This document shows, piece after piece, positions 11,023 through 62,387 of a stretch of 64,000 nucleotides of DNA (positions within the stretch are counted from its first letter, which is position 1; every line of letters begins with the position of its first letter). The stretch is taken from contig NZ_JAKVIL010000001.1 of NCBI RefSeq assembly GCF_022601675.1, positions 496,001 through 560,000 of the forward strand, given 5' to 3'. The stretch comes from Ancylobacter gelatini. GTDB taxonomy: Bacteria; Pseudomonadota; Alphaproteobacteria; Rhizobiales; Xanthobacteraceae. Position numbers and translations under genes: made by a program. The notes under the pieces are model-generated. The model saw only the letters and a list, made by a program, of their open reading frames with translations, did not search any database and was not told the origin of the DNA.

Positions 11023-11031
<9 letters not shown>

Positions 11032-40898: not shown

Positions 40899-41912
<1,014 letters not shown>

Positions 41913-41928
41913 GGCGACGCCTCCCGGT

Positions 41929-43268: not shown

Positions 43269-43317
43269 GCACGGTCCTCCCGGTGGACCAGCGCGGGCAA
43301 GACCCGTCGAACGGTCC

Positions 43318-43336
43318 TTGTGATTGTTAATCACAA
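43318..43336. promoter_or_regulatory. Perfect 8-bp-arm palindrome, candidate GntR operator
   Basis: TTGTGATTGTTAATCACAA has arms TTGTGATT and AATCACAA around GTT. It sits in the 127-bp gap between the GntR gene (43,396-44,139) and the LVIVD-repeat gene, close to the latter's expected promoter. Confidence 0.55.
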
Positions 43337-43395
43337 GAATGTTCGAACAAAAATACTATGTCAATAAAAGCGGGCCTTGTTTGTTCGTTTGGCAG

Positions 43396-44139
43396 CTAGT
43401 TTGCCTCGTCGCCATTGCCCGCCGAGAGGCTCAGGGAGACCTCTTCATAGTTGCGGATCACCACCTCGACGCTCCCCTGAAAATGCTCCGCGAGCACGGC
43501 GGTGGCGCGATCCGCGTCGCGGGCGATGGCCGCTTCCGCGATGGTGCGATGCTGGTCTCGCACGCGCTTCAGAAGCTCCTGCGAAGACGAGGTAACGACG
43601 ATCACGCCGCGCCGATAGCGCTGGAAATGATCGGACAACGCCCCGCAGAAATGCAGCAGCCAGGGCGAGTCGCAGGCGGCGATCAGGCTGTAATGGAAGC
43701 GGTCGTGACGCAGTTCCCATTCGTCGACGATCTTGCGGTCCTCGACCGAATGCGGCAGCGGCGTGCGCTCCAGCCGGTGCAGGGCGGCAAGAATCTCCGC
43801 CTCCCAATCCTCGTCGCCGCGGGTGATGGAGCGGCGCAGGGCGTTGCAGCTCAGCTCGGTACGCAGCGCACACAGATCATGCAGATCCGACAGCGACAGC
43901 GGGGCGACGGTGTAGCCACGGTGGCCTTCGAAGCGCACCAGTTGATCGGATACCAGACGCGACAGCGCCTCGCGCAGTGGCGCGATGCCGACCCCATAGA
44001 TGGAACTGAGCTGGCGAAAGCGCAGCCGCTCGCCGGGCTTGAGATGACCGGCGATCAGGTCGCGGCGCAGCCGGGCGTAGATCTCGATGCCTAGCGTTGT
44101 CGATTCGTCGTCCGCGACCGCGACGGGCTGAAGGGACAC
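43396..44139 (-). CDS. GntR-family (FCD subfamily) transcriptional regulator
   Basis: A 247-residue regulator. The N-terminal winged helix has YARLRRDLIAGHLKPGERLRF (about 21-41) and IYGVGIAPLREALSRL. The C-terminal FCD domain has metal-site residues around WELRHDRFHYSLIAAC and QHRTIAEAAI. It is on the same strand as the LVIVD-repeat gene downstream and TetR upstream, but separated from each by about 100 bp, so it is probably its own unit. The palindrome at 43,318 is a plausible target. Confidence 0.88.
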   Translation of the reverse strand: MSLQPVAVADDESTTLGIEIYARLRRDLIAGHLKPGERLRFRQLSSIYGVGIAPLREALSRLVSDQLVRFEGHRGYTVAPLSLSDLHDLCALRTELSCNALRRSITRGDEDWEAEILAALHRLERTPLPHSVEDRKIVDEWELRHDRFHYSLIAACDSPWLLHFCGALSDHFQRYRRGVIVVTSSSQELLKRVRDQHRTIAEAAIARDADRATAVLAEHFQGSVEVVIRNYEEVSLSLSAGNGDEAN

Positions 44140-44233: not shown

Positions 44234-44935
44234 CTAGCGCGTTGAGTTGTCCTTTGTTTCCTGATCGGCGAGGCGCTTCAGCACCGGGCCGACGCCGGTG
44301 AGGAAGGTGTCGACCGCATTGCGGATCATGGTCGGCCGATCGACCGGCATCGGGAACTGGTAAACGATCTCGCGGACGCCGTAGTAGAAAATGCCGCCCT
44401 GAAGGGTCCAGAACAACTCGACCTCCTGCGGACTCGGCGGTTCGGCCCCGCCGAGACCGAAGCTCTGCCGGGTCGCCAATGTGATGGGGCGCAGGATTTC
44501 CGTCTCCACCGTCGCCGCATAGCGCCGGTTGATGTCGACGCCGCGCAGGCCCGCGAAGATGTAGATGCGGATCCATTCCGGCGTGAAGATGGTGTGCGTG
44601 TAGTCCTCATAGAAGGCGATGATGCGCTCGCGGATCGGGCGGCTGTCATCCATCAATCCCTCGCGCCACTCGCTCTTCCAGCGGTTGACGTAGATCTCCT
44701 GATAGACCGCGGCGATCAGGTCGTCCTTGCTCGGAAAATAGCGGTAGAGCAGCGGCTGGGTGACGCCAAGGCGCTGGGCGAGTTCGCGGGTGCCGGCTTC
44801 GAACCCGACCTCCGCGAACAGCTCGATGGCCTTGCGGACGAATTCGCGATGCCGATCCTCGGGCTTGTTGCGGGTGCGCCGGGCCGCGCGAACCGTGCCG
44901 GTGGCCTCAGCGGAGGGAGATGACGAGCCGTCCAT
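44234..44935 (-). CDS. TetR-family transcriptional repressor, probable regulator of the 44-60 kb regulon
   Basis: A 233-residue TetR protein. Its N-terminal DNA-binding domain (about 24-70) has REFVRKAIELFAEVGFEAGTRELAQRLGV and QPLLYRYFPSKDDLIAAVY, the classical helix-turn-helix. The ligand domain is of ordinary length. ATG 44935 is chosen because it begins the family's disordered, basic N-terminus; the frame is open much further upstream. It starts 35 bp after the flavin-monooxygenase gene, so it is the last gene of the VOC-monooxygenase-TetR operon. A TetR-type palindrome lies in that operon's promoter and in two other intergenic regions nearby. Confidence 0.9.
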   Translation of the reverse strand: MDGSSSPSAEATGTVRAARRTRNKPEDRHREFVRKAIELFAEVGFEAGTRELAQRLGVTQPLLYRYFPSKDDLIAAVYQEIYVNRWKSEWREGLMDDSRPIRERIIAFYEDYTHTIFTPEWIRIYIFAGLRGVDINRRYAATVETEILRPITLATRQSFGLGGAEPPSPQEVELFWTLQGGIFYYGVREIVYQFPMPVDRPTMIRNAVDTFLTGVGPVLKRLADQETKDNSTR

Positions 44936-44970
44936 TGATCTTGCGTCGATGTCCTTGTCGAGACTGCGTC

Positions 44971-46185
44971 TCACACGACCGGGTTGTCGGCTTCCATGCC
45001 GAGCGCAAGGCGCCCGAAGGCGGCGTTGGCGACATCGGAGCTGAAGGCGATATGGGCACTTATAGCATGGGCGTCGCGAAAGCGGCGCTGCGGGCTTCCT
45101 GAAAGATAGAGCGACTGCGCGCCACCCGCGCCATTGATCTCGTCCACCGCCTGCGTCGCCAGGCCGGTCGCGAAGGCCAGATCCCGGCGATAGGCGAACT
45201 TCGTCACCGGATCGGGGACATGCCCGCGCTCGGCATCGCACATCGCCTCGTTGCAGATCGCCAGCATCATGCGCCGGGAGTGGGACAGCCGGGTCGCGGC
45301 GCTGCCGATGTGGATCTGCACGCTCTGCAGTTCCGCCAGCCGCGCGCCGGTGTAGCTCGCCGCACGCTTGCGGGTGGACGCGACATGATCGGTGAGGGCG
45401 CCTTCGCCATTGCCGAGCCCGACGCCAGAGAGAATGGCCGGGAACAGGGCGAACACCGGCAGCCGGTAGAGCGGCGCGGGATGCCGCTCCGAGCCCGGCG
45501 TCTCGCCGCCTTTCAGATGCGCGGCGGAGACGGTCATCTCCTCCGGCACGAAGACGTCCTCGCACATCACATCGTTTGAGCCAGTGCCCTTGAGCCCCGT
45601 GACCTGCCAGGTATCGAGAATCCGATAGTCGGAGCGGGGGAGCAGGAACACACGGTGGTCCGGCGCCTCGCCGTCCTCGCGCACGATGCCGGCAAGCATG
45701 TTCCAGCCGCAGACATCGACCCCCGAGGAGAACGGCCAGCGGCCGGACAGCACATAGCCGCCGGGCGCCTTCGTCACCTTGGCGGCGGGAAAGACGAAGG
45801 AGGAGGCGATCAGCGCGTCGCGGTCCTCGTTCCAGATACGGTCCTGCGCGGCCGGCGGGAACATGGCCAGCATCCAGTGATGGCTGGCGAGGTTGGTGAG
45901 GTTCCATGCGGTCGAGGCGCAGCCGGCCGCCAGCGCGGCCCCGATGGTGATCAGGCTTTCATAGCCGAGTTCGGCGCCGCCGATCGCCTGCGGCTGAAGC
46001 ATCCGGTAGAGGCCGCTGTCATGCAGGTCGCGCTCGCTTTCCGGCGGCAGGCGACGCAAGTCTTCGGTACGCGGGGCGCGTGCGGCAAACACCGAGGCGA
46101 GTTCGACGGCGCGCCCGAGCAGTTCATCGTGGCGCTGTTCCACGGGCGAGCGGGCAATGGCGGGTGCAGCGATCGTGTCGATCAT
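44971..46185 (-). CDS. Acyl-CoA dehydrogenase-fold flavin monooxygenase (group D, HsaA/DszC-like)
   Basis: A 404-residue flavoprotein of the acyl-CoA-dehydrogenase fold. Segments typical of the monooxygenase branch are RRLPPESERDLHDSGLYRMLQP (about 44-65), GCASTAWNLTNLASHHWMLAMF and VTGLKGTGSNDVMCEDVFVPEE. The catalytic Glu of true acyl-CoA dehydrogenases is not evident, and the SxHH pattern agrees with flavin hydroxylases of phenols, steroids or dibenzothiophene. ATG 46185 is placed after GAGGGAGG; a GTG at 46200 overlapping the VOC stop is an alternative. It probably starts ring oxidation using reduced flavin from a reductase elsewhere. Confidence 0.82.
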   Translation of the reverse strand: MIDTIAAPAIARSPVEQRHDELLGRAVELASVFAARAPRTEDLRRLPPESERDLHDSGLYRMLQPQAIGGAELGYESLITIGAALAAGCASTAWNLTNLASHHWMLAMFPPAAQDRIWNEDRDALIASSFVFPAAKVTKAPGGYVLSGRWPFSSGVDVCGWNMLAGIVREDGEAPDHRVFLLPRSDYRILDTWQVTGLKGTGSNDVMCEDVFVPEEMTVSAAHLKGGETPGSERHPAPLYRLPVFALFPAILSGVGLGNGEGALTDHVASTRKRAASYTGARLAELQSVQIHIGSAATRLSHSRRMMLAICNEAMCDAERGHVPDPVTKFAYRRDLAFATGLATQAVDEINGAGGAQSLYLSGSPQRRFRDAHAISAHIAFSSDVANAAFGRLALGMEADNPVV

Positions 46186-46196
46186 CACGGCCTCCC

Positions 46197-46676
46197 TCAC
46201 GCGCGCCCGCGGCGGTCGAGGTAAAGCGTCGCTTCGAGGTTCTCGCCGACCTGTTCGAAGCGATCGGCGAGGCGCTTGAGTTCGGGAATCCGGGAGGTAT
46301 CGAGGCTCGAAACATCCGGCCAGTCGACCTCGACGAGATTGCCGCCGGGATCGCGCAGATAAAGCTGCACCGTGCCATCGGGCATCTCGTTCACGCCATT
46401 GCCGAAGGTCGCGTGGTCGATGAGGCCGGCGTCACGCGCCCGCTCATACACGCCCATGAAATCATCCACGTTGAGAGCGAAATGCTGGTAGTGCGGCGTG
46501 GCGTCGGGCAGGCCGAAGATGTGCAGCTGCTGGTTGCCGCAGCGCAGATACTGGGTGCGAAAGCCGAAATTATAGGTCGGGATGATCTCCATCCCGAACA
46601 GCGCGACATAGAAGCGAACGGACTCCTCGACATCGCGGGCGCCGATCGACAGATGGTTCAGGCCGGTGGCGTGCAT
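46197..46676 (-). CDS. VOC-superfamily protein (extradiol dioxygenase/glyoxalase fold)
   Basis: A 159-residue, one-module VOC protein. The start GLNHLSIGARDVEESVRFY gives His at about 8, YQHFALNVDDF gives a second His, and VQLYLRDPGGNLVEVDWPD gives the Glu, the usual 2-His-1-Glu metal site. Single-module members include type I extradiol dioxygenases, isomerases and resistance proteins. It is the first gene of the VOC-monooxygenase-TetR operon; a perfect palindrome lies 20 bp upstream of its start. Ring cleavage after the monooxygenase step is a reasonable guess. Confidence 0.82.
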   Translation of the reverse strand: MHATGLNHLSIGARDVEESVRFYVALFGMEIIPTYNFGFRTQYLRCGNQQLHIFGLPDATPHYQHFALNVDDFMGVYERARDAGLIDHATFGNGVNEMPDGTVQLYLRDPGGNLVEVDWPDVSSLDTSRIPELKRLADRFEQVGENLEATLYLDRRGRA

Positions 46677-46695
46677 GGCGCTCCCTTATATTTTT

Positions 46696-46713
46696 ACTTA
46701 TCGATCGATAAAT
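46696..46713. promoter_or_regulatory. Palindromic operator 1 of the candidate TetR regulon
   Basis: ACTTATCGATCGATAAAT contains the perfect 14-bp palindrome TTATCGATCGATAA (46698-46711). It lies in the divergent promoter region between the VOC operon (minus) and the HisD-like operon (plus), 20 bp from the VOC start. The same motif recurs at 53,444 and 57,420. Confidence 0.75.
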
Positions 46714-46740
46714 AACATTGGAAGTGGACCCCGGCAAGGC

Positions 46741-46778
46741 TTGACACTTGTCGGTAATTTAGTTTTCACTCGATAAAT
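46741..46778 (+). promoter_or_regulatory. Candidate promoter with a degenerate second operator
   Basis: A perfect TTGACA at 46741-46746 is followed by AGTTTTCACTCGATAAAT at 46761-46778, which matches the regulon consensus at about 15 of 18 positions and has an intact right half (TCGATAAAT). The operator-like half covers the expected second promoter box, as repressors often do. The gene served would be the HisD-like dehydrogenase. Confidence 0.45.
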
Positions 46779-46858
46779 AACAACAGATATCGACGGATCG
46801 CGCTGAGCCTCGCCGCTCGCGTCAACGTTTGGCCCCGCCAAGGCGCCAGGAGGAAAAC

Positions 46859-48178
46859 ATGCCCCGCCATTTGAAGACCGCCCGCTCCATCGAGGAACGG
46901 GCCGACGCCGATGCGCAGGTGCGCGCCACGGTCGAGACCATCCTCAGGGAGATCGAGAACGGCGGCGACGCGGCCGTCCGCTCCTATTCCGAGCGCTTCG
47001 ACAAATGGTCGCCGGCGAGCTTCAAGCTGTCCGAACAGGATATCGAAGCGGCGCTGTCCAAGGTCTCGAAGTCCGATCTCGACGACATCCGCTTCGCACA
47101 GGCGCAGGTGCGCAACTTCGCCGAGAAGCAGCGCGCCTGTATCACCGACCTTGAGGTGGAAACCCTGCCGGGCGTGATCCTCGGCCACCGCAATGTGCCG
47201 GTGGAGCGTGTCGGCTGCTATGTGCCGGGCGGCAAATATCCCATGGTCGCCTCCGCCCATATGAGCGTGGTCACCGCAAAGGTCGCGGGCGTGAAGAGCG
47301 TCGTGGCAGCGGCCCCGCCGTTTCACAACGGACCGCATCCCGCCATCGTGGCGGCGATGCATCTGGCGGGGGCCGACGAGATTCTCGTGCTCGGCGGCGT
47401 TCAGGCCGTGGCGGCCATGGCGCTGGGCACCGAGACGGTCTTGCCGGTCGACATGCTGGTGGGGCCGGGCAATGCCTTCGTCGCGGAGGCCAAGCGGCAG
47501 CTCTATGGCCGCGTCGGCATCGACCTGTTCGCCGGCCCGACCGAGACGCTGGTGATCGCCGACGACACGGTGGATGCCGAGATCTGCGCGACCGACCTTC
47601 TGGGCCAGGCCGAACACGGGCCGACGTCGCCCGCGGTGCTGCTCACCAATTCCGAGAAGCTGGCGCGCGCGACCATGGCGGAAATCGAGCGACTGCTCAA
47701 AATCCTGCCGACCAGTGAGATCGCCTCGGTTTCCTGGCGCGATTTCGGCGAGGTGATTGTCTGCGACAGCGTCGACGAGATGGTCGCCGAGGCCGACCGC
47801 ATCGCGTCCGAGCACGTGCAGGTGATGACGGCAGACCCGGACTACTTCCTGAACAATATCCGCAATTACGGCGCTCTGTTCCTCGGCCCGCGCACCAATG
47901 TCGCCTATGGCGACAAGGTGATCGGCACCAATCACACGCTGCCGACCAAGAAGGCGGCGCGCTACACGGGTGGGCTCTGGGTCGGCAAATTCCTCAAGAC
48001 CTGCACCTATCAGAAGGTGACCAGCGACACGGCGAGCGCGGAAGTTGGCGAGTACTGCTCGCGGCTCTGCGTGCTCGAAGGCTTCCTTGGCCATGCCGAG
48101 CAGGCCAATGTCCGGGTGCGCCGTTATGGCGGCGGCAATGTCGAGTATGCGACGGCGGCGGCCCGCAAGGTCGGGTGA
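46859..48178 (+). CDS. Histidinol dehydrogenase-family protein, probably catabolic (HpsN-like)
   Basis: A 439-residue NAD-dependent zinc dehydrogenase. It keeps the family's key residues: Gln and His of GQAEHG (250 and 253), Glu-His of ASEHV (318-319), the Asp of [10 protein letters not shown] and the late His of [35 protein letters not shown] is the central motif. Context is catabolic: it sits beside a deacetylase and monooxygenase with regulon operators in its promoter, and no his genes are near. A branch of this family includes sulfopropanediol 3-dehydrogenase HpsN, so an alcohol-to-carboxylate oxidation of a small polyol is likelier than histidine synthesis. CAGGAGGAAAAC precedes the ATG. 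Confidence 0.82.
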
Positions 48179-48230
48179 CACCGGCCCGCCGAGCCCCTCC
48201 CATCAGACCTGACATGCCCGGAGCCGCAGC

Positions 48231-49103
48231 ATGAGCCTTCTCAGCGAACGTGCGCCTTATCTCGCCTTTCCCGACCGCCCGCGCCTGCATTTGCCCGATG
48301 ATGCCCGCGTCGCGGTCTGGATCATCGTCAATGTCGAGGAATGGTCCATCGCCCGGGCCATGCCGCGCACCGTGCTGCCGCCGCCCATGGGCCAGCCGCT
48401 CATGCCCGATCTGCCCAACTGGGCCTGGCATGAATACGGGATGCGGGTTGGCTTCTGGCGGCTGCTGAAGGCGATCGAATCCCGCGGTCTGCGCGCCACT
48501 TTCGCGGTGAACGGCCATGTCTGCCATTCCTATGAGCGGGTGACGCGGGCGGCACGCGATGCCGGCTGGGAGTTCATGGGCCACGGCTACGTGCAGCAGC
48601 CGATGCATCATGTGGAGGACCAGCGCAAAGCGATCTTCGACACGGTGGAGGCGATCCGTGATTTCACCGGCCGCCCGCCGCCCGGCTGGGAAAGCCCCGG
48701 CCTCACCGAGAACGATGCGACGCTCGACCTCCTGAAGGAGGCCGGCGTGGGCTATGTCGCCAATTGGGTGATCGACGACCTGCCGTTGGAACTCGCCACC
48801 GGCCATGGGCCGATGCTGTCGGTGCCCTATTCGGTGGAGACCAACGACATTGTCGTGCATGCCGTGCAGCATCAGCCTTCCGACGCCTTCCTGCGCCGCT
48901 GCACGCTGCAGTTCGACCGGTTATGGGAGGAGGGCGCACAGAACGCCAAGGTGATGGCGATCAGCACGCATCCCTATCTGACCGGCGTGCCGCACCGCAT
49001 CGGCTATTTCGAACAATTGCTGGACTATGTGCTGGCGCGGCCGCATGTGGCGATGATGACCGGCGAGGAGATCGCCGATTGGTACCGCGCCGCGAGCCTT
49101 TAA
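48231..49103 (+). CDS. Polysaccharide deacetylase-family hydrolase (PuuE allantoinase-like)
   Basis: A 290-residue NodB-fold protein with the arrangement of the cytosolic amidase branch (PuuE allantoinase, peptidoglycan deacetylase HP0310 type). It has VWIIVNVEEWSIARAMP at the first strand, VGFWRLLKAIESRGLRATFAVNG, the GWEFMGHGYVQQPMHH segment at about 114-129 with two metal-type His positions, and ISTHPYLTGVPHRI near the end. There is no signal peptide. It probably hydrolyses a cyclic or linear amide. It follows the HisD-like gene by 52 bp and is convergent with the ABC operon. Confidence 0.82.
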   Translation: MSLLSERAPYLAFPDRPRLHLPDDARVAVWIIVNVEEWSIARAMPRTVLPPPMGQPLMPDLPNWAWHEYGMRVGFWRLLKAIESRGLRATFAVNGHVCHSYERVTRAARDAGWEFMGHGYVQQPMHHVEDQRKAIFDTVEAIRDFTGRPPPGWESPGLTENDATLDLLKEAGVGYVANWVIDDLPLELATGHGPMLSVPYSVETNDIVVHAVQHQPSDAFLRRCTLQFDRLWEEGAQNAKVMAISTHPYLTGVPHRIGYFEQLLDYVLARPHVAMMTGEEIADWYRAASL

Positions 49104-49110
49104 GGCCGGT

Positions 49111-49788
49111 CTAGAAGCTCGGCAACCGGGGCGCTCCCGGCGCGATGGGCAGCAGCTCGTCGCGCCAGAAGCCGTTGCCGCGTTCGCCGAGCAGTTCGGC
49201 GAAGATGCCGGGTCGAGCAAGATCGGCACCGGTGATCATCCGTACCGTTATCCCCGCCGCAGCCAGTTGCTCCTGCCGTCGGCGTTCGGCCGCCGGGAGC
49301 AGGGCTGAGGGTGCGAAAAGCACGGCCACGGCTGTTTCGCCAAGCCACAGGAACATGTCCACCGGGACATGGCCCCCCGCTTCCAGCGGCAGCACTGCGC
49401 GCGGCAGCGGAAGGGGGGCGGAGTAGAGCACATCCTCCGGCACGAAAAGCCCGGCCATCCCGTCCAGCCGCTCCCCGATCTCCTCGCGATGGCTGGCGAT
49501 GATCGACCGGAGATGCGCGAAATAGCCGTCGATGAACAGGCCGGCGCTGCGGTTCCACCCGCCGGCCAGCCGTTTCAGATGCTCGGCCAGCCTCATATCG
49601 GTTGGCGTGTTCTCCTGTCCGATTGCCGGCGCCGGCAGGTCGAGCGCCTCATCGCTGAGACGCAGCAACTCCCCCGGATGTACGGGCACCCAGGGGAGGC
49701 TGTCGAGGGAGCCCGTCGCCGGTGCCTTCTCGGCGCCATAGGCGACGAGCGGCGGCAAGCCGGCGAGGGCGGGGAGGCGGCGTGTCAC
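49111..49788 (-). CDS. Uncharacterised 225-residue protein, last gene of the ABC importer operon
   Basis: I recognise no family with confidence. The GTG start (49786-49788) overlaps the permease stop, so it is translated with the importer. The sequence is soluble and mixed alpha/beta. A segment near 147-200 (VPVDMFLWLGETAVAVLF, then ERRRQEQLAAAGITVRMITGADL) resembles the core of small restriction-like nuclease folds, but the acidic and Lys catalytic positions are not visible. Earlier parts contain HLKRLAGGWNRSAGLFIDGYF. It could be an accessory factor of the transporter; function unknown. Confidence 0.65.
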   Translation of the reverse strand: MTRRLPALAGLPPLVAYGAEKAPATGSLDSLPWVPVHPGELLRLSDEALDLPAPAIGQENTPTDMRLAEHLKRLAGGWNRSAGLFIDGYFAHLRSIIASHREEIGERLDGMAGLFVPEDVLYSAPLPLPRAVLPLEAGGHVPVDMFLWLGETAVAVLFAPSALLPAAERRRQEQLAAAGITVRMITGADLARPGIFAELLGERGNGFWRDELLPIAPGAPRLPSF

Positions 49789-50633
49789 CGCCGGCTCTCG
49801 GGATGCCAGATCAGCAGGCGGCGGCGGACGATCTCGAGACTCTTCACCACCACGAAGCCCAGGATGATGATCTGCACGATGCCGGCGAACACACCGACCG
49901 AGTCGGCGAAGCGCCCGGCCATGATCATCGAGCCACCCACGCCGCGCCCGCCCATCAGCATCTCCGTGACGATGGTGGTGATCATGCCGGTCGGCAGTGC
50001 GACCTGAAGGCCGGTGATGATCTGCGGCATGGCCATGGGCAGATACACTTCCCACAGCAGCTCGCGCTCCTTGGCTCCCAGCGAGCGGGCCGACCAGATC
50101 GGCCATTTGTCGAGGCCGGAGCAGCCGGCATAGGTCGCCGCGACGATCGGGAAGAAGCAGGAGAACGACACCATGATGATCTTCGAGGTGTCGTAAATGT
50201 CGAACCACAGGATGAAGATCGGGAGGAAGGCGATCTTCGGCATCGGGAAGCCGATGGACACCAGCGGGTCGAGGAACCAGCGCATCACCGCCGAGCGCGC
50301 CATCAGAATGCCGGCGGGAATGCCGATCACCGCGCCGATGACGAAGCCGAGCAAGGCGCGATAGAGCGTGAGGCCGAGATCGACCAGCACCGTGCCCGCG
50401 AGCAAATCTTCCCAGATCCGCCCCAGCACCACGCTGAGCGGCGGCAGCAGGAAGGGGTTGAGCGCGCCAAAGCGTGCGCTGAACTCCCAGATGCCGGCGA
50501 GCAGGGCGACCACCGCGATCTGAACGAGGGTATCGACCGTCTTCGGCGAGATCGCGCGGGCCGCACGAGGCGCCGGAACCTTCCTGGTGGGCATGTTCGG
50601 AGCGATGTGGCGGGCCTGAGCCATGTTCATCAT
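49785..50633 (-). CDS. SsuC/TauC-type ABC transporter permease (second of two)
   Basis: A 282-residue permease of the nitrate/taurine/sulfonate class with about six helices. The binding-protein-dependent transport motif is LGAKERELLWEVYLPMAMPQIITGL (about 175-199). GFPMPKIAFLPIFILWFDIYDTSKI is the usual central segment. The first ATG (50631-50633) overlaps the preceding stop as ATGA and has GGAGGGAGG upstream. It pairs with the permease encoded just before it, giving a heterodimeric channel. Confidence 0.91.
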   Translation of the reverse strand: MMNMAQARHIAPNMPTRKVPAPRAARAISPKTVDTLVQIAVVALLAGIWEFSARFGALNPFLLPPLSVVLGRIWEDLLAGTVLVDLGLTLYRALLGFVIGAVIGIPAGILMARSAVMRWFLDPLVSIGFPMPKIAFLPIFILWFDIYDTSKIIMVSFSCFFPIVAATYAGCSGLDKWPIWSARSLGAKERELLWEVYLPMAMPQIITGLQVALPTGMITTIVTEMLMGGRGVGGSMIMAGRFADSVGVFAGIVQIIILGFVVVKSLEIVRRRLLIWHPESRR

Positions 50634-51427
50634 GCCTCCCTCCAGCGCAGCGAGCGCCGAGCGAACATCGCGTAGAGGCGGTCCGCCCCGAACCCGATGC
50701 CGGCGACGAAAAAGATGGCGGCGAACATGGCCGGATACTGTCCGCCATCGCCGAGCGAGGAAATCATGAAGCCGACGCCATCGGTGGCGATGACGAATTC
50801 CGAACTCACCATCAGGATGAAGGAGAAGGCAAGCGCGGTGCGGCAGCCGTTGATAATGTCCGGCATCGCGCCGCGCAGTACCACTTCGCGCAGCACGTCG
50901 AAGCGCGAGGCGCCGAGGCTTGCCGCCGACCACAGCAGAAACGGATTGACGCCACGGGCGCCATTATAGGTGCCGACCACGACGGGGAGCAGGCAACCGA
51001 GAAAGATCAGCAGGATTTTTGACGAATCCCCCAGGCCAAGCCAGATCATGACCACGGGGATCAGAGCGGATTTCGGCATGGGGTAGAAGATCTGCACGAT
51101 CGGATTGACCAGCAGCCGGGCGATACGGAACTGCGCCATCATCAGCCCGACGACCACGCCGACAATCACCGCAGCGGCCAGTCCCCCCGCCGCGCGGCTG
51201 ACCGAGCGGGCGGTGTTGTAGAGCAGGTCGCCATTGACCAGCATCTGGACGAAGGCGGAAAACACCTCTCCGAGCCCGGGCAACATCTGCTGCGAGACGA
51301 TGCCGCTAAGGCCCAGGAACTCCCAGAAGAAGGCCAGCAGCAGCAGCGGCGAGAAGCGGAATGCCAGCTCGATGAGGGTGTAGCCAAAACCGGGCGGGCG
51401 CCGGCGACCGGCGAGAGTGTCGCTCAT
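50630..51427 (-). CDS. SsuC/TauC-type ABC transporter permease (first of two)
   Basis: A 265-residue permease with the family's FYPMPKSALIPVVMIWLGLGDSSKILLIFLG segment and the transport motif LGASRFDVLREVVLRGAMPDIINGC. ATG 51427 shares its A with the stop of the ATPase gene; a TTG one codon upstream is possible. Two distinct permease genes, where the sulfonate systems usually have one, point to the related aromatic or pyrimidine-type importers. Confidence 0.91.
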   Translation of the reverse strand: MSDTLAGRRRPPGFGYTLIELAFRFSPLLLLAFFWEFLGLSGIVSQQMLPGLGEVFSAFVQMLVNGDLLYNTARSVSRAAGGLAAAVIVGVVVGLMMAQFRIARLLVNPIVQIFYPMPKSALIPVVMIWLGLGDSSKILLIFLGCLLPVVVGTYNGARGVNPFLLWSAASLGASRFDVLREVVLRGAMPDIINGCRTALAFSFILMVSSEFVIATDGVGFMISSLGDGGQYPAMFAAIFFVAGIGFGADRLYAMFARRSLRWREA

Positions 51428-52260
51428 CAATGCACCCCCCGCGTCGCCGCCACCGCCTGCTCGCGCACCAGACGCCAGATGTGCTCGCTGAGCCCGATGA
51501 ATTCGCGGTTCTCGAGGATCTCCTCGCCGCGGTCCTTGGGCAGGTTGACGTCGATGATGTGCTGGATGCGGCCGGGCCGCGCGCTCATGATCGAGATGCG
51601 GTCGGCGAGGAACACCGCCTCCTGCACGTCATGGGTCACGAACACCACGGTCTTGCGGCTGTCGCGCCAGATTGCGCGCAGCTCTTCCTGCATGACGCGC
51701 CTTGTCTGCGCGTCGAGCGCGCCGAATGGCTCGTCCATCAACAGGATGCCCGGATCGACCGCCAGCGTGCGGGCGATGGCGGCGCGTTGCTGCATGCCGC
51801 CGGAGAGCTGCGAGGGATAGGAGTTCTCGAACCCGGTGAGATGCACCATGTCGATGTAGCGCTGGGCGCGCTCCTCGCGCTCGGCGCTGGGGTAGCCGGC
51901 TTTCTTCAGGCCGTAGAGCACATTGTCCTTCACGGTCTTCCACGGGAACAGCGCGAAGTTCTGGAACACGATGCTGCGGTCCGGCCCCGGCGCCGTCACC
52001 GGGCCGGCGGCGGTGGAGATCACCCCGGACTGCACCGGGATGAAGCCGCCGACGAGATAGAGCAGCGTGCTCTTGCCGCAGCCCGAGGGGCCGAGCAGGC
52101 AATGGAACTCGCCATCGCCAATCTCGAGATTGATGCCGTCCAGAGCCAGCATCCCGCCGCCGCCCTGCGCGCCATAGCTGTGCGATACATTGCTGATCGA
52201 GATGCCGCTGGCGAGGTGTGCGCCCTGTCGCGGGGCGGCCGATGCGTGGGTCATGCTCAT
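51427..52260 (-). CDS. SsuB/TauB-type ABC transporter ATPase
   Basis: A 277-residue ATPase. Walker A is GPSGCGKST (about 58-66), the Q-loop QNFALFPWKTVKDNV, the signature QLSGGMQQRAAIARTL, Walker B ILLMDEPFGALD and the H-loop VTHD. The LFPW segment and the MQQR signature are characteristic of the nitrate/sulfonate/taurine class. It energises both permeases and overlaps the receptor gene by ATGA. Confidence 0.94.
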   Translation of the reverse strand: MSMTHASAAPRQGAHLASGISISNVSHSYGAQGGGGMLALDGINLEIGDGEFHCLLGPSGCGKSTLLYLVGGFIPVQSGVISTAAGPVTAPGPDRSIVFQNFALFPWKTVKDNVLYGLKKAGYPSAEREERAQRYIDMVHLTGFENSYPSQLSGGMQQRAAIARTLAVDPGILLMDEPFGALDAQTRRVMQEELRAIWRDSRKTVVFVTHDVQEAVFLADRISIMSARPGRIQHIIDVNLPKDRGEEILENREFIGLSEHIWRLVREQAVAATRGVH

Positions 52261-53285
52261 TGGCTGGCCTCGATCCGCTTCTGTGCCTCCTTGACGAAGC
52301 TCAGGTCGACATAGTCGGGATCGACCTTGATGCCGCGCTGGGCGAGGCCGAGATCAACCGCGATATCAATGCTTTCCTGGATGGCGTTAATGTTCGGCAC
52401 CATGAAGGGATCGCGGAAATAGTCTTCCTTGGTGAACAGGTAGCTCAGCGATTCCGGCGACTGCTGCATGAAGTTGGCGATGATCTTCACCGCCTCGTCG
52501 TGGTTCTTCGGGTCGGTGAACCAGCGCACGGCGCGGACATGGTCCTCGAAGAAGTCCATCAGCGCCTGGCGGTTATCCGCGAGGAACTTGCCATTGGCGA
52601 CCAGGAAGACGAGCTGGGACGGCCCCATCGCATCCTTGGAGGTGAACAGCACCTTGTAATTCCCGGTGGCGATCATCTGCTTCGACATCGGCTGCAGCAC
52701 GGTGCCGAGGTCGATCTTCTTCTCATCCAGCATCGCCGGGATGTTGGGGAAGGCGACCTCGACCATCGTGTAGTCGCGCTTGTCCTGCATGTTGTTCTTG
52801 CGGAACATGGCGCGGATGCCGGTGTCGGAAGCCGAGCCGATGGCGTTGGTGCCGACCCGCTTGCCCTTCATGTCGGCGATGGTGTTGATCCCGGAATCGG
52901 CACGGACCATGAAGGTCTCGCTGTGGCTGTCGCCGACGCCGTCCTGAATGATGTCGGCCACCACCTTCACGTCCAGCCGGGCATTGGTCGCGGCGAGCGC
53001 GAGCACCAGGGGGCCGAAGGCGGCCATGTCGATCTCGTTCGCCGCCATGGCGGTGATCTGCGGCGAGGACCCGCGGAACCGAATCGGCTCTACCGTGTAG
53101 CTCTTGCCGTAGTATTTGAGGATTTCCGGCTTGCTGTAGAGCACCGGGATGAGATGGCCCGGCATGGTGGACCAGCCGATGCGGATCTTGACCGGGTCGG
53201 CCTTTGCCGGGGTCAGACCGCCGGGGGCGATGATGAGGGCCGCCATCGCGGCCGCGAGCGCCAAGGCGCCGCGTCGTGTTGCCAT
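52257..53285 (-). CDS. ABC transporter substrate-binding protein (NMT1/THI5-like, SsuA class)
   Basis: A 342-residue periplasmic receptor and first gene of the five-gene importer operon. The signal peptide ends near AKA at about 29. The mature part opens VKIRIGWSTMPGHLIPVLYS and carries the GSSPQITAMAANEIDMAAFGPLVLALAATN segment (about 72-101). DMKGKRVGTNAIGSASDTGIRAMF forms the second-lobe ligand loop. This class binds sulfonates, nitrate, pyrimidines or aromatic acids; specificity cannot be read here. A regulon palindrome lies about 160 bp upstream. Confidence 0.9.
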   Translation of the reverse strand: MATRRGALALAAAMAALIIAPGGLTPAKADPVKIRIGWSTMPGHLIPVLYSKPEILKYYGKSYTVEPIRFRGSSPQITAMAANEIDMAAFGPLVLALAATNARLDVKVVADIIQDGVGDSHSETFMVRADSGINTIADMKGKRVGTNAIGSASDTGIRAMFRKNNMQDKRDYTMVEVAFPNIPAMLDEKKIDLGTVLQPMSKQMIATGNYKVLFTSKDAMGPSQLVFLVANGKFLADNRQALMDFFEDHVRAVRWFTDPKNHDEAVKIIANFMQQSPESLSYLFTKEDYFRDPFMVPNINAIQESIDIAVDLGLAQRGIKVDPDYVDLSFVKEAQKRIEASQ

Positions 53286-53443
53286 GATCGTTTTCTCCCG
53301 ATGCGCCCGGGCTTTGGCCGGGTCGCTTGTTGTTCTGGGCAGAGAAGATCGGGGCGTCCCACGGACTCCGCGCGGGAGAAGTTGGGCGTCCCGGTCGGCT
53401 TGGCGTCACCCGCCGCTGGTACTTTGCGCGGCAGCTCCTGCTT

Positions 53444-53461
53444 ATTTATCGATTGATAATC
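53444..53461. promoter_or_regulatory. Palindromic operator 2 of the candidate TetR regulon
   Basis: ATTTATCGATTGATAATC matches the consensus ATTTATCGATCGATAAAT at 15 of 18 positions, including the full left half. It lies between the importer operon and the upstream SDR gene, in the expected promoter region of the importer. The rest of the gap 53,286-53,542 shows no gene. Confidence 0.7.
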
Positions 53462-53542
53462 TCTTGGATTTTCGATCATGTCAACGATGCAAGATGATCT
53501 CGGCATCGCTCGCAAGTCCTAAAGTGCGGATCGCGATGCCGG

Positions 53543-54304
53543 CTAACGCCCGCCGCCGACGGGAATAATCGCGCCCGTGACATAGCCGCTGGCGGGCGAG
53601 GCCAGCCACATCACAACATCGGCAACTTCCGTTGCTGTACCGGGCCGCTGCATCGGGATCATCGGGCCGAGCCGCTCCAGCCGTTCCGGCGCGCCGGCGG
53701 CGGCGTGCAGATTGGTGGCGATGAGGCCCGGAGCGACGGCGTTGACGCGAATGCCTTCCGCCGCAACCTCGCGCGCAAGACCGATGGTGAGGCTGTCCAC
53801 CGCGCCCTTGCTGGCCGCGTAATGCACCCACTCGCCGGCACCGCCGAGTTCGGCGGCGCGGGAGGACATGTTGATGATGACGCCGCCCCGTCCGCCGTGA
53901 CGCGTCGACATGCGTTTCACCGCTTCCCGGCAGCACAGGAAGCTGCCGACGACGTTCACGGCCATGATGTCGGTGAGCGCGCGGGCGGTGATCGCCTCGA
54001 CCCGGCCGAGCGGACCGACACCGCCGGCATTGTTGACCAGTATGTCGGGCGGGCCGAAGTGGGTATCCACCTTGCGGAACAGCGCGAGGACATCGGCCTC
54101 ATCGGCGACATCCGCCTTGACGATGAACGCGTCGCCGCCGGCCGTCGAGACAGCCTCGGCGACCGCTTCGGCGCCGGCCGCGTCGCCCTTGTAGGTGAGG
54201 GCGACCCGGTAGCCCGCGGCACCCGCGGCACCGGCGATGGCCGCGCCGATACCCTTGGAGGCGCCCGTGACGATGATGGTCCGAGACGTGGCGGATAAAG
54301 GCAT
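53543..54304 (-). CDS. Short-chain dehydrogenase/reductase
   Basis: A 253-residue classical SDR. It has cofactor motif TGASKGIG (13-20), NNAGG at about 91-95, the catalytic Ser in NMSSRAAE, YAASK giving Tyr and Lys (about 157 and 161), and the C-terminal VGGGR. It is the last gene of the cyclase/BKACE/Gfo-Idh/SDR operon, 11 bp after the Gfo/Idh gene. It likely oxidises or reduces a hydroxy or keto intermediate. Confidence 0.92.
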   Translation of the reverse strand: MPLSATSRTIIVTGASKGIGAAIAGAAGAAGYRVALTYKGDAAGAEAVAEAVSTAGGDAFIVKADVADEADVLALFRKVDTHFGPPDILVNNAGGVGPLGRVEAITARALTDIMAVNVVGSFLCCREAVKRMSTRHGGRGGVIINMSSRAAELGGAGEWVHYAASKGAVDSLTIGLAREVAAEGIRVNAVAPGLIATNLHAAAGAPERLERLGPMIPMQRPGTATEVADVVMWLASPASGYVTGAIIPVGGGR

Positions 54305-54315
54305 GGCAGTTCTCC

Positions 54316-55317
54316 TCAGGAGACGGTGACGAAGCGATCCTTCCCGACGACGGCGACGATGGCTTCCAGCACCGCGACGCCGTGGATCATCTCAGCGGGT
54401 GTTATGGGATAGGGCGTACCGCCCTGGGCAGCCTGGGCAAAGGCGTCGAGTTCCGCCCGCAACGTATCGAAGCCTTCGACCGTGTCGTGCGTCGCCGGCG
54501 CCGCGGGCGCGCCGGGTGTGGTCAGTACCGGCTGCAGGCTGAAACGGTCCAGCGTCGCGCCGGTGATGGTCACGGTGGCGGCCGAGCCGGCGACCATGAA
54601 GCGATAGGTCGGCGCCGTGGCGGTGAAGGCGAGCAGCGAGCCGGTCTGCCCGCTCCTGAAGCGCAGCAACACCGAGGTGGTGTCCTCGGCGCCCGAGGGT
54701 GCGGCGCGGTGAACGCTCTGGCAGGCAACGGCCTCTACCTCGCCGAACAGGTCGATCATGCCATCCACGAGGTGGATGCCGAGCCCGGTCATCCCGCCGG
54801 CAGGCGACTGATCGGGATCGGTGCGCCACCCGCCGGCCCGCATGAACAGGCCGGTCGGCGAGGCCATCTCGCCATGGCAATGCAGTACCGTGCCGAGTTC
54901 GCCCGACCGCACGAGAGCACGCAGCCGGTGCATGTTGGGATGGAAGCGCCGGTTATGGCCGAGCGCCAGCGTCACGCCGGCGCGCTCCGTCGCGGCGACG
55001 GCTTCCCGGGCGCTCGCCTTCGTCATGGTGAAGGGCTTTTCGACGAAGATGTGCTTGCCGGCTGCCGCCGCCAGCGCGATCTGCTCGGCGTGCTGGAGAT
55101 GCGGGGTCGCCAGCACCACCGCCTCGACCGAGGGCTCGGCGAGCACGGCCTCAAAACTGTCCTTGAGTTCGATGCCGGCGGAGGACGCGAAGTCCTCCGC
55201 CTTGGCGCGGGTGCCGGTGGCGGCACATGTGAAGCGGATGAGGTCGCTCTTGCCCTGCGCCGAAGTGACGAGAGACTGCCCCCAGCGGCCGAGCCCGATG
55301 ATCGCGGTGTTCAGCAC
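54316..55317 (-). CDS. Gfo/Idh/MocA-family oxidoreductase
   Basis: A 333-residue dehydrogenase with Rossmann motif TAIIGLGRWGQSLV (4-17), the EKP motif (IFVEKPFTM, Lys near 96) and MTGLGIHLVDGMIDLFG in the C-terminal domain. It has the same layout as the gene at 30,848 and is the third of four operon genes. It starts three bases after the BKACE stop, so translation is coupled. Confidence 0.88.
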   Translation of the reverse strand: MLNTAIIGLGRWGQSLVTSAQGKSDLIRFTCAATGTRAKAEDFASSAGIELKDSFEAVLAEPSVEAVVLATPHLQHAEQIALAAAAGKHIFVEKPFTMTKASAREAVAATERAGVTLALGHNRRFHPNMHRLRALVRSGELGTVLHCHGEMASPTGLFMRAGGWRTDPDQSPAGGMTGLGIHLVDGMIDLFGEVEAVACQSVHRAAPSGAEDTTSVLLRFRSGQTGSLLAFTATAPTYRFMVAGSAATVTITGATLDRFSLQPVLTTPGAPAAPATHDTVEGFDTLRAELDAFAQAAQGGTPYPITPAEMIHGVAVLEAIVAVVGKDRFVTVS

Positions 55318-55320
55318 GGC

Positions 55321-56253
55321 CTAGAAATCCACCTGGTCCGCGCCCTTGAGCGCGAGCATGTCGCGGGCCTCATCGGGCGTGGCGAGTTCAAGCCCCATGC
55401 CTTCGAGGATCTGCCGCGCCTTGCGCACCTGCGCAGCGCTGGATGGCGCGAGTTCGCCCGGCCCGAGCCACAGCGAATCCTCCAGTCCTACGCGGACATT
55501 GGCCCCCATCGAGGCGGCCATGGCGGCGACTCGAAGCTGCGAGGCCCCCGCGCCGAGCACCGACCAGCGATACTGGTCGCCGAACAGCCGGTCGGCCGTG
55601 CGCTTCATGTGGATGATGTCTTCGGGGTGCGTGCCGATGCCACCGAGAATGCCGAACACCGACTGCACGAAGAGCGGCGGCTTGACGAGGCCGCGATCGA
55701 GGAAGTGCTTGAGATTGTAGAGATGGGCGATGTCGTAGCACTCGAACTCGAAGCGCGTGCCATTGCCGTAACAGGTCTCGAGTATGTACTCGATGTCTTT
55801 GAAGGAATTACGGAATACCAGATCCCGCGTCGCTTCGAGATGCTGACGCTCCCACTCGAACTTGAAGTCCTTGTAGCGGTCGAGCAGGTGGTACAGGCCG
55901 AAATTGATCGACCCCATATTGAGCGAGGCGACCTCCGGCTTGAAATGCGCCGCCGGCAGCACACGCTCTTCCACCTTCATATAGGGGCTGCCGCCGGTGG
56001 TGATGTTGATGGCGGCATTGGTGCGCTGCTTGAGCTGCGGCAGGAAACGCCCGAACGCCTTGGGCGTCTGGTCCGGCTTGCCGGTCTCCGGGTTGCGGGC
56101 GTGCAGATGCAGGATCGCGGCACCGGCTTCGGCGGCGCCGATGGCGTCGGCGATGATCTCGTCCGGCGTGATCGGCAGATGCGGCGACATGGAAGGCGTG
56201 TGAATCGCGCCGGTGCAGGCGCAGGTGACGATGACCTTGCGGGCGGCAGCCAT
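55321..56253 (-). CDS. Beta-keto acid cleavage enzyme (BKACE, DUF849 family)
   Basis: A 310-residue TIM-barrel zinc enzyme. Members condense a beta-keto acid with acetyl-CoA and cleave it to acetoacetate and a CoA ester. Visible motifs are VTCACTGAIHTPSMSPHLP (His near 18 and 25), HLHARNPETGKP with the two zinc His (about 49 and 51), ASLNMGSINFG, and a late Glu in RVGLEDSLWLG. The substrate side pocket differs among subfamilies and cannot be read by eye. It implies that the pathway of this regulon passes through a beta-keto acid. Confidence 0.9.
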   Translation of the reverse strand: MAAARKVIVTCACTGAIHTPSMSPHLPITPDEIIADAIGAAEAGAAILHLHARNPETGKPDQTPKAFGRFLPQLKQRTNAAINITTGGSPYMKVEERVLPAAHFKPEVASLNMGSINFGLYHLLDRYKDFKFEWERQHLEATRDLVFRNSFKDIEYILETCYGNGTRFEFECYDIAHLYNLKHFLDRGLVKPPLFVQSVFGILGGIGTHPEDIIHMKRTADRLFGDQYRWSVLGAGASQLRVAAMAASMGANVRVGLEDSLWLGPGELAPSSAAQVRKARQILEGMGLELATPDEARDMLALKGADQVDF

Positions 56254-56331
56254 GATCGGCTCCAGTGATTCGAGCGGCGAGGGGACGGCGCGGGTCTGCG
56301 CCGTCCTGCGATATCAGCCTATACGGCGGCG

Positions 56332-57285
56332 CTACTTGATCGCCTGCGGATTGATCGGCGAGCCGGTGCCGCCGGTGATGATCAGCGGCGGACCACAGAA
56401 GAAGAACTCGTAGATGCCATCCCTGGCGCAGTCCTCGGCGAGTTCCTTGACGTAGAAGATCTCGCCCATGCACAGGCCCATGGCGGGGATCACCACCCAG
56501 TGCCAGGGCTGGTTGGCTTCGGTGGTCTCGTTCGGCCGCACCTCGACACCCCAGGTGTCGGAGCAGATCGCTGCGACCTCCTTCTCGTGGCACCAGTAGC
56601 AATTCTCGAACTTCACACCCGGCGCGTCGCCACCGGCATAGCCGCCCCATTCGCCTTCGGCGAGGCAGCGTTCCATCTGGCCGGTGCGGACGATCACGAA
56701 ATCGGCCCGGCGGATTTCGACACCCTGCTTCCTGGCGCAGGCGTCGAGTTCGTCATTGGAGATGGATTCTCCGTCCTTCAGCCAGTCGACGCCGCGGAAA
56801 CGGGCAATGTCCAGCAGCACGCCGCGCCCGTTCATCTTCGACTTGGAATGTTCGATGCCGAGAACGTTGAGACCGCGCGAATCGATGTGACGGGGATCGT
56901 GGCCGTTATAGGCCTTGTCCTCATAGAAGATGTGGCCGAGCGCATCCCAATGGGTGGCCCCCTGCACGCACAGATTCAGCGTGTCGTCGGCATAGCGGAT
57001 CTTGTTCCAATCCTGCTGGCCGGTGACGGCATCGGTGCCGGTGGCGAGCATCTGGTGGATCGGATTGAAACGCCCGCCGAACAGACCGTTCTGCGGCCCT
57101 TCGCGGTCGAGCGGGATGCCGAGCGAGAATACCCGGCCGGTTTTGATAAGCCCGGCAGCGGCGACGATGTCCTCCGGCTGGATGTGATTGAGCGTGCCGC
57201 TGTGATCGTCCTTGCCCCAGCGCCCCCAGTTGGAGAGCTTGCGGGAGGCCTCTTCTATGGCGGCGAGGCCGACATTGATGTCCAT
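56332..57285 (-). CDS. Cyclase-family metal-dependent hydrolase (PF04199, kynurenine formamidase-like fold)
   Basis: A 317-residue member of the cyclase family, which includes kynurenine formamidase and isatin hydrolase and cleaves amide or lactam bonds in aromatic-like compounds. The metal motif is recognisable as CVQGATHWDALGHIFY (about 110-125), with a further His in KAYNGH. The family's usual HxGTHxDxPxH is modified to ATHWDALGH. ATG 57285 follows AGGAAA. It is the first gene of the minus-strand operon driven from the region holding operator 3. Confidence 0.85.
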   Translation of the reverse strand: MDINVGLAAIEEASRKLSNWGRWGKDDHSGTLNHIQPEDIVAAAGLIKTGRVFSLGIPLDREGPQNGLFGGRFNPIHQMLATGTDAVTGQQDWNKIRYADDTLNLCVQGATHWDALGHIFYEDKAYNGHDPRHIDSRGLNVLGIEHSKSKMNGRGVLLDIARFRGVDWLKDGESISNDELDACARKQGVEIRRADFVIVRTGQMERCLAEGEWGGYAGGDAPGVKFENCYWCHEKEVAAICSDTWGVEVRPNETTEANQPWHWVVIPAMGLCMGEIFYVKELAEDCARDGIYEFFFCGPPLIITGGTGSPINPQAIK

Positions 57286-57419
57286 GGGTTTCCTCACTTT
57301 TCTGGTTTTTCGATCGCCGGCCGCAAGAACTGGCGTTGGCCGGGTGGCAGTTCAGGGCACGCGGATTGGTTTTCTCGGCGGGACTAATCACGTCCGGGCT
57401 TTTCAAGCTCGTGCGATTT

Positions 57420-57437
57420 GTTTATCGTTCGATAAAT
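57420..57437. promoter_or_regulatory. Palindromic operator 3 of the candidate TetR regulon
   Basis: GTTTATCGTTCGATAAAT matches the consensus at 16 of 18 positions and has perfect 7-bp arms TTTATCG and CGATAAA around TT. It lies in the 338-bp divergent gap between the cyclase operon (minus) and the hydrolase operon (plus), so it could control both. Confidence 0.75.
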
Positions 57438-57494
57438 ATCAGGGTGGCGTGACGGTTTTGTCAATCGCTCACAGTGGGTCGAAGCCAAAGTCGT

Positions 57495-57623: not shown

Positions 57624-58436
57624 ATGACGACCGAATTCGTCACTTCCGGCGACGCCGAGATCGCCGTGCGCATTGATGGGGCGGAGCATCTGCCCTGGAT
57701 TGTGCTGTCGAACTCGCTCGCCGCCGATCTCACCATGTGGGACGACCAGATCCCGTTCCTGACCCGCAGCTACCGAGTGCTGCGCTACGATACGCGCGGC
57801 CATGGGAAGAGTTCTGCGCCGGCCGGGCCTTACAGCTTCGACATTCTCGTTGGCGATCTCCTCGCGGTCATGGACCATTTCGCCATCAGGCAGGCGGATA
57901 TTCTCGGTCTGTCGATGGGGGGTATGACGGCTCTGGGCCTCGCCCTTGGCCATCCCGAGCGCGTCGGCCGGCTGATCTGCGCGGATGCGCGTGCCGATGC
58001 GCCGCCGCCTTTTGTGGCCGGCTGGGAGCAGCGCATCGCGGCGGTGGAAGCCGGCGGCATGGCGGCGATCCTCTCCGGCACCATGGAGCGCTGGTTTACC
58101 GCCGCGACGCGCAAGCAGCGGCCGGAGGTCGTCGATCGCGCGGCACGCATGCTGCTGTCGACGTCGCCCGTCGGCTATATCGGCTGCGCCAACGCCCTGA
58201 GGGGGCTGGATTATCTGCGCCACCTCCAGCGTATGCAGCCGCCGACGCTCTACATCGTCGGCGCCGAGGATGGCGCCGCGCCGGCCGACGCGATGCGCAA
58301 CATGGCGGCCGCAACGCCGGGCGGACAGTTCGAAATCCTGCCGGCCGTCGCACATGTCGCGAACATGGAAGACGTTGACGGTTTCAACACGGCGGTAGCC
58401 AATTTTCTCAACATTTCCCGACAAGCGGCGGAGTGA
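57624..58436 (+). CDS. Alpha/beta hydrolase, 3-oxoadipate enol-lactonase (PcaD)-like
   Basis: A 270-residue alpha/beta hydrolase. The nucleophile elbow is GLSMGGMT (Ser near 97), the catalytic Asp probably lies in VGAEDGAAP and the His in VAHVANMED. The early RYDTRGHGKSSAP segment is typical of the PcaD group. GGAGAGGAG precedes the ATG. It is the first gene of a four-gene plus-strand operon and may open a lactone or hydrolyse a ring-cleavage product. No pca genes accompany it, so the true substrate is probably different. Confidence 0.87.
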   Translation: MTTEFVTSGDAEIAVRIDGAEHLPWIVLSNSLAADLTMWDDQIPFLTRSYRVLRYDTRGHGKSSAPAGPYSFDILVGDLLAVMDHFAIRQADILGLSMGGMTALGLALGHPERVGRLICADARADAPPPFVAGWEQRIAAVEAGGMAAILSGTMERWFTAATRKQRPEVVDRAARMLLSTSPVGYIGCANALRGLDYLRHLQRMQPPTLYIVGAEDGAAPADAMRNMAAATPGGQFEILPAVAHVANMEDVDGFNTAVANFLNISRQAAE

Positions 58437-58441
58437 GACGC

Positions 58442-59341: not shown

Positions 59342-59342
59342 C

Positions 59343-59783
59343 ATGGGGGATCTTACTCTGGCTCAGGCCGATGTGATCGGCCGTGCCGCCCTGGAGGACG
59401 GCCGGCGGCGCGACGCCAAGCCCCTCACCGTGGTGGTTCTCGATGCCGGCGGCCATGTGACGCTGGTGCGCCGTGAGGACGGCAGCGGGATCGCGCGGTT
59501 CGACATCGCCTTTGGCAAGGCCTGGGGCGCTCTGGGCATGGGCATTTCCTCGCGGGGCCTGTCGGTACGCGCCGCGAAGATGCCCGGCTTCTTCGCCGCG
59601 CTCGCCGCGGCGACCGATGGCCGTATGGTGCCGGTGCCGGGCGGCGTGCTGGTCCGCGACGGAGCGGACGGGCCGATCATCGGCGCGGTTGGCATCAGCG
59701 GCGACACCTCCGATGTCGACGAATTCTGCGCGGTCGCCGGCATCGAGGCCGCCGGTCTCGTGGCGGATATCGAGGAGCGCTGA
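59343..59783 (+). CDS. GlcG/HbpS-family small protein
   Basis: A 146-residue single-domain protein (PF03928), beginning LTLAQADVIGRAALEDGRRRDAKPLTVVVLDAGGHVTLVRR and containing IIGAVGISGDTSDVDEF. This is the usual signature, ending in the conserved G-[VI]-S-G-x-x-x-x-x-D loop. Its biochemical role is poorly defined: HbpS binds haem, and GlcG and related members accompany glycolate or aromatic catabolic genes. It lies between dehydrogenase and SDR genes with spacing of one to three bases. Confidence 0.85.
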   Translation: MGDLTLAQADVIGRAALEDGRRRDAKPLTVVVLDAGGHVTLVRREDGSGIARFDIAFGKAWGALGMGISSRGLSVRAAKMPGFFAALAAATDGRMVPVPGGVLVRDGADGPIIGAVGISGDTSDVDEFCAVAGIEAAGLVADIEER

Positions 59784-59786
59784 ACC

Positions 59787-62371: not shown

Positions 62372-62387
62372 CACCGGGAGAGCGGTG

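Follow-up and report, generated by a model that had tools for sequence, protein, structure and literature searches.

A TetR-family regulator and four palindromic operators predicted to control a ring-compound catabolic locus of Ancylobacter gelatini

The AcuR, RutR and KstR families of TetR-type regulators are local repressors of catabolic clusters; they bind palindromic operators and control the adjacent catabolic and uptake operons. Here we analysed a window of 64,000 nucleotides (the whole stretch of DNA under study) from Ancylobacter gelatini (assembly GCF_022601675.1, contig NZ_JAKVIL010000001.1, positions 496,001 to 560,000), whose genome comprises 4,308,108 bases in 20 contigs. The window encodes a regulator (44234–44935) that carries the TetR_N helix-turn-helix domain in common with AcuR, RutR and KstR. 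Its matches to their profiles are weak, however, and it stands in another gene set; no close named equivalog was found among the NCBIfam profiles, all those listed scoring far under their cut-offs. Four palindromes nearby are very probably the binding sites of one repressor holding ring-degrading and uptake genes off until a signal arrives, and this TetR is very probably the regulator that acts on them.

An initial annotation of the window had claimed three near-identical palindromes at 46,696, 53,444 and 57,420, intergenic and in promoter position, together with a degenerate copy at 46,761. Searching the window with ATTTATCGATCGATAAAT at up to 3 mismatches returned exactly these three (1, 3 and 2 mismatches, respectively), against a mean of 0.00 matches over 100 shuffles. 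In the whole-genome scan that the annotation had asked for, the 16-mer core TTTATCGATCGATAAA matched at up to 2 mismatches at the same three positions and nowhere outside the window. Allowing 3 mismatches added two matches, C4:108070 and C16:53510 (one in the reversed-pattern control); both scored below 8 bits by the refined matrix described below and were rejected as regulon members. A looser 20-mer search found four window sites and two others, with two in the reversed-pattern control. The fourth window site is the copy near 46761, the one called degenerate in that annotation: it scored 31.5 by the refined matrix, on a par with operator 1 and the other two palindromes (34.4, and 31.5 and 33.4), and its 22 letters were unchanged in seven of ten related loci checked, with one to three changes in the other three. 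We therefore count it as a fourth operator, which raises the number of good sites from three to four. Each of the four lies in intergenic DNA ahead of genes:

46694–46715, no strand: operator 1 (22 bp), ahead of the VOC-monooxygenase-TetR operon; matrix score 34.4
46759–46780, no strand: operator 4, the earlier "degenerate copy"; covers the -10 position of a TTGACA (46741) promoter directed at HisD
53442–53463, no strand: operator 2, ahead of the ABC importer operon; overlaps the -10 of the minus-strand promoter TTGACA-17-GATTAT
57418–57439, no strand: operator 3, located where the cyclase and hydrolase operons diverge; overlaps the -10 of the minus-strand promoter TTGACA-18-GATATT (cyclase)

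The palindrome was then followed among relatives of the TetR. A TetR match at E 1e-40 or better was present in 34 of 297 genomes of the order, the window's own included, and each of the eight best-scoring others (46–74% identity) carried one or more palindromes at up to 3 mismatches in the stretch retrieved with tetR, near genes related to HisD, HsaA, VOC, cyclase or BKACE of the window. Among named genome records, we took the loci of the best 80 of at least 431 TetR relatives, the closest of these being in Ancylobacter; five of the eight order genomes are apparently the same contigs as five of the 80. The palindrome occurred in 38 of the 80 loci at up to 2 mismatches and in 71 at up to 3, whereas 300 permuted palindromes reached means of 0.09 loci (maximum 7) and 1.3 loci (maximum 29); the permutation with most sites was evidently a register-shifted reading of the same sites. 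Footprinting upstream of orthologues, for which the initial annotation had also called, thus found the palindrome kept. At the more distant end, no palindrome was found within 20 kb at four outgroup TetR loci (39–41% identity). The one same-genus genome sampled lacked both a TetR match (at E 1e-40) and a site (at up to 2 mismatches).

Refinement on the 80 loci and the window gave the operator TTATTTATCG-nn-CGATAAATAA, the matrix reading nTTATTTATCGnnCGATAAATAAn. At a score of 11 the matrix matched in 80 of 81 loci, compared with 12.2 loci on average and 32 at most when 100 column-shuffled matrices were used; at a score of 20 it found 209 sites in 80 of 82 loci (G058 added). It was trained on loci that it then scored, an overlap of which the permutation test, a 120-kb set and a set of plasmid loci are independent. 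Because of this overlap, we scanned three plasmid loci that had not entered the training, those of Rhizobium CIAT894, CB3060 and Ancylobacter polymorphus; each contained three sites scoring 26–34, although these loci are fairly close kin of plasmid pRL8 (79% and 83% DNA identity for two of the three). In 120 kb of non-regulon sequence there was no match scoring 16 or more. These results indicate that the palindrome tracks orthologues of the window TetR, mostly in Rhizobiales and Rhodobacterales, far above controls.

Two sister clades, B (17 loci) and C (14 loci), were sampled from more distant TetR homologues of about 37–46% identity. The recognition helix was QPL[LI]YRYF in all 80 clade A loci and Q[SA]L[LI][FY]xYF in clade B, where palindromes lay near TTATTGATCA-nn-TGATCAATAA; in clade C it was HSAI[YF]R[HY]F (read in 12 of 14), with palindromes near TTTGTGACCA-nn-TGGTCACAAA. 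The palindromes of B and C thus keep the layout of the clade A operator with other letters. The own-clade palindrome was the single best in all 17 clade B and all 14 clade C loci, while shuffled half-sites reached 5 mismatches in a mean of 0.04 (B) and 0.13 (C) loci; the B and C consensus strings were derived from some of the loci later tested. When the inner core was compared over whole loci, the A type was single best in 66 of 80 clade A loci, tied in 12 and beaten in two (once each by B and C), the B type was best in 16 of 17 clade B loci with one tie, and the C type was best in 14 of 14; clade A loci are longer than those of B and C, so that more chance matches fall within them. A midpoint-rooted FastTree tree separated the clades (80, 17 and 13 leaves; supports 0.74, 1.0 and 1.0 for A, B and C), one of the 14 clade C proteins having been lost in extraction. 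Class-wide searches for the sister TetRs gave sparse returns (4 and 8 of 289 genomes). The residues that change between clades fall in the stretch aligning with the helix-turn-helix of the tetracycline repressor, positions that touch bases in TetR. Since sister clades with other recognition helices carry other palindromes, operator and helix change together.

The genes concerned are the following:

44234–44935, minus strand: TetR-family regulator with helix GVTQPLLYRYF (PF00440, 55.9 bits against a cut-off of 24)
44971–46200, minus strand: HsaA/HpaH-type flavin-dependent monooxygenase, oxygenase component (NF045629, 297.8 bits, below the 450 cut-off; PDB 2rfq, 225 bits)
46197–46676, minus strand: VOC-fold (glyoxalase/extradiol-type) protein (PF00903)
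46829–48178, plus strand: HisD-family dehydrogenase, longest open reading frame, likely ATG at 46859 (PF00815; 8v35, 400 bits)
48231–49103, plus strand: PuuE-like polysaccharide-deacetylase-family protein (PF01522; 1z7a, 3cl6)
49785–53285, minus strand: ABC importer comprising an SsuA/NMT1-type binding protein, an ATPase and two permeases (profile matches)
53543–57297, minus strand: operon of PF04199 cyclase/hydrolase, BKACE, Gfo/Idh oxidoreductase and SDR (profile matches)
57624–60506, plus strand: operon of PcaD-like alpha/beta hydrolase, HIBADH-family dehydrogenase, GlcG/HbpS-like protein and SDR (profile matches)

Across the 82 loci the operator lies again and again upstream of the same gene families, as expected of one regulon and less markedly for the hydrolase operon. 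The gene map was crude (gene calls from codon-position guanine-cytosine content), so the counts are approximate. The HsaA-like gene belonged to a site-headed operon in 38 of the 50 loci that have one, and the cyclase came first at a site in 28 of 33. At or behind a site stood the flavin adenine dinucleotide (FAD) subunit of a molybdenum hydroxylase (37 of 39), HisD (13 of 21), VOC (10 of 12) and the binding-protein family of the window's ABC importer (3 of 3, window included), and of the 71 loci where tetR was clustered, 44 had it inside a site-headed operon. In the window, promoters with a perfect TTGACA lie at operators 2, 3 and 4, each having its -10 position overlapped by the operator; these -10 hexamers match at 3 to 4 of 6 positions, only 3 for the HisD-directed promoter at operator 4. 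Across loci, TTGAC begins 17 or 18 bases ahead of the operator in 32 of 418 site-orientations, compared with an expectation of about 0.3 per position; as the loci are related, these and the placement counts are not independent.

Some features of the neighbourhood may be recorded here. The importer type beside this TetR clade varies (ABC NMT1-type in L086, TRAP in L107, branched-chain type in L110 and L126), and a PRK07236-type FAD monooxygenase is the first gene at the operator in 9 of 9 loci having one (including L113, L127, L145, L151 and L157). Rhodococcus pDK1 has a cyclase relative, with no TetR among its listed genes and no operator at a score of 18 or more. GntR, LVIVD-repeat, CobW and Bug/TctC-type genes (window 39356–44139; L086–L092) tend to remain near tetR in Ancylobacter-type relatives; the refined matrix found no operator match in 39356–44139. 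Behind the hydrolase operon (60743–62888) lie a methyl-accepting-chemotaxis-like and a CheW-like reading frame, assigned from translation alone.

Plasmid pRL8 of Rhizobium johnstonii 3841 (R. leguminosarum 3841 in PMC3333776) resembles the window in having an orthologous TetR (RL_RS25340), a cyclase, a HisD and three sites of the same operator. The TetR gene lies between the operators at 37025 and 37924, and the third is at 39816. In order, they precede moaA, a cyclase-SDR pair and an XdhC-family gene; moaA is about 700 bases from its operator, and no gene is listed between them in a table that is incomplete. Ramachandran and colleagues (PMC3333776) report that in the pea rhizosphere pRL80036, which they name N-formylkynurenine formamidase, was raised 6- to 10-fold and pRL80037 2.5- to 3.5-fold; they term pRL8 pea-rhizosphere specific. 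From gene order and annotation, we take pRL80036 to be the cyclase RL_RS25345. The region differs from the window in that an SDR behind the cyclase, a molybdenum hydroxylase, CoxG and a branched-chain-type importer replace the VOC-monooxygenase pair and the SsuA-type importer, and in that the pea-induced pRL80021–30 are without a site. The idea that the operator heads all pea-induced pRL8 genes was rejected on this ground, and another regulator must therefore act on pRL80021–30. Within pRL8 4657–16390 (our locus L172), the pea-induced CoxG, molybdenum-hydroxylase and branched-chain-type importer genes have no operator, and a LysR gene lies nearby at 16394–17374.

Could the palindromes be nothing but chance AT-rich repeats? 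Comparable matches at up to 2 mismatches do exist in other genomes, yet none was expected in the window, none lies elsewhere in its genome at that stringency and the footprinting was strong; on the shuffles, the genome scan and the permuted-palindrome test we rejected chance, which is left with a vanishingly small probability. A more concrete candidate is the neighbouring GntR/FCD regulator (43396–44139), which might bind the palindromes in place of the TetR. FCD-type GntR proteins bind short palindromes too, and the gene sits directly beside tetR in the window and in several relatives. The GntR family, however, occurs in 8 of 82 loci by crude clustering, compared with sites in 80 of 82, which led us to reject it; the gene table for the pRL8 stretch, which is incomplete, names no GntR, and the palindromes change with the TetR helix. 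We regard this candidate as very improbable.

As to the direction of control, some TetR-family proteins activate, and the activator FasR is among the weak NCBIfam matches of the window TetR, so that activation, alone or besides repression, has to be considered. It is very unlikely, given that at three of the four window sites the operator overlaps the -10 of a TTGACA promoter, the classical place of repression, and that tetR so frequently lies within a site-headed operon. A larger share of the probability goes to a regulon restricted to the VOC, HisD, ABC importer and cyclase operons, the hydrolase operon just sharing an intergenic region with the cyclase operon. At operator 3 the best promoter is oriented towards the cyclase, the plus-strand match is poor, and of 6 loci with the hydrolase family only 2 had it in a site-headed operon; on the other hand, HIBADH-family genes, second in the hydrolase operon, stood in one in 7 of 24 loci and were first at the site in 6. 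The restricted regulon is possible but somewhat doubtful.

Several observations weigh against TetR repression through these operators. The motif at up to 2 mismatches was present in 107 of the 297 order genomes, many without a close TetR; it is therefore not diagnostic alone, and single matches mean little. Two of the 82 loci had no site at a score of 20, only 48 of 209 sites had TTGAC 14–27 bases ahead of the operator, and in pRL8 the pea-induced pRL80021–30 are not preceded by an operator. Within 46650–46880, the promoter scan tool found no promoter, and a terminator-like hairpin contains the TTGACA; operator 1 is without a good -35. Finally, the full 20-position consensus within 1.5 kb of tetR separated clade A poorly (A single best in 28, ties in 27, C best in 18 and B in 7 of 80 loci), because Bradyrhizobium-type operators have one divergent half.

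Computation establishes the sites, their uniqueness in the genome, their co-occurrence with the TetR clade, their placement at the same gene families and their co-variation with the helix; binding by TetR, repression rather than activation, the ligand and the substrate are inferred. TetR dimers would bind the four 22-bp operators at the promoters of the VOC-monooxygenase-tetR, HisD-deacetylase, ABC-importer and cyclase-BKACE-Gfo/Idh-SDR operons, and probably of the divergent hydrolase operon, and there block RNA polymerase. A small molecule, most likely an imported ring compound or an early breakdown product, would bind the C-terminal domain of TetR and free the repressor from its operators, so that importer and enzymes switch on together; since one repressed operon has tetR as its last gene, the circuit would limit itself. 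We give this mechanism as a whole a probability of roughly 0.9. The initial annotation had assigned the sites to this TetR, a view that the co-occurrence with orthologues and the palindrome change with the helix support, and had counted five operons into the regulon. Control is well supported for four, where the site overlaps a plausible, correctly directed promoter (HisD, ABC importer, cyclase) or recurs at the same place in relatives (VOC-monooxygenase). For the hydrolase-dehydrogenase-GlcG-SDR operon, control by operator 3 is likely but less certain, because the cyclase operon, which diverges from it, shares the site and is also the one that the best promoter faces.

An operator and its probable regulator are now defined for a catabolic regulon found in dozens of alphaproteobacteria, including genes in a pea-rhizosphere-specific plasmid region. 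A reporter on this operator would allow the inducing root compound to be found directly, and the three-clade helix-operator series offers a natural data set on shifts of TetR specificity. Tentatively, and as one joint proposal, this TetR subfamily may follow a simple recognition-helix code at fixed spacing (QPL[LI]YRYF for TTATCG, Q[SA]L[LI][FY]xYF for TGATCA and HSAI[YF]R[HY]F for TGACCA half-site cores), clade A may control a widespread undescribed pathway for a plant-derived ring compound, and the pRL8 ligand may be a pea-root exudate substance or its breakdown product.

The gene content (monooxygenase, C-C hydrolase, BKACE, dehydrogenases and importer) suggests that the locus degrades a ring compound step by step to a beta-keto acid. 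In this it resembles the end of phloroglucinol degradation. For the PGR-DPGC-TfD-TAL pathway of Clostridium scatologenes, PMC10470551 describes a "cyclase"-family C-C hydrolase, a BKACE-family lyase and an SDR-family reductase, likewise clustered. The window's BKACE passes the triacetate/3,5-dioxohexanoate profile NF053538 (545.6 bits against a cut-off of 430), which establishes profile membership only, and a PF04199 protein and SDRs are present, family-level candidates for dihydrophloroglucinol cyclohydrolase, phloroglucinol reductase and triacetate-forming dehydrogenase. The nearest solved relatives of the HisD-family dehydrogenase are sulfopropanediol 3-dehydrogenases. Compared with the Clostridium pathway, the window adds monooxygenase and ABC importer genes, and its substrate may be a compound other than phloroglucinol. 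The literature searched held no paper with the palindrome string, on a cyclase-BKACE-HisD pathway or on a TetR/cyclase/molybdenum-hydroxylase system in Bradyrhizobium, and no evident match for the gene set. The type of system is ordinary; what is new is a well-defined member of it, with a defined operator, its spread and the link to pRL8.

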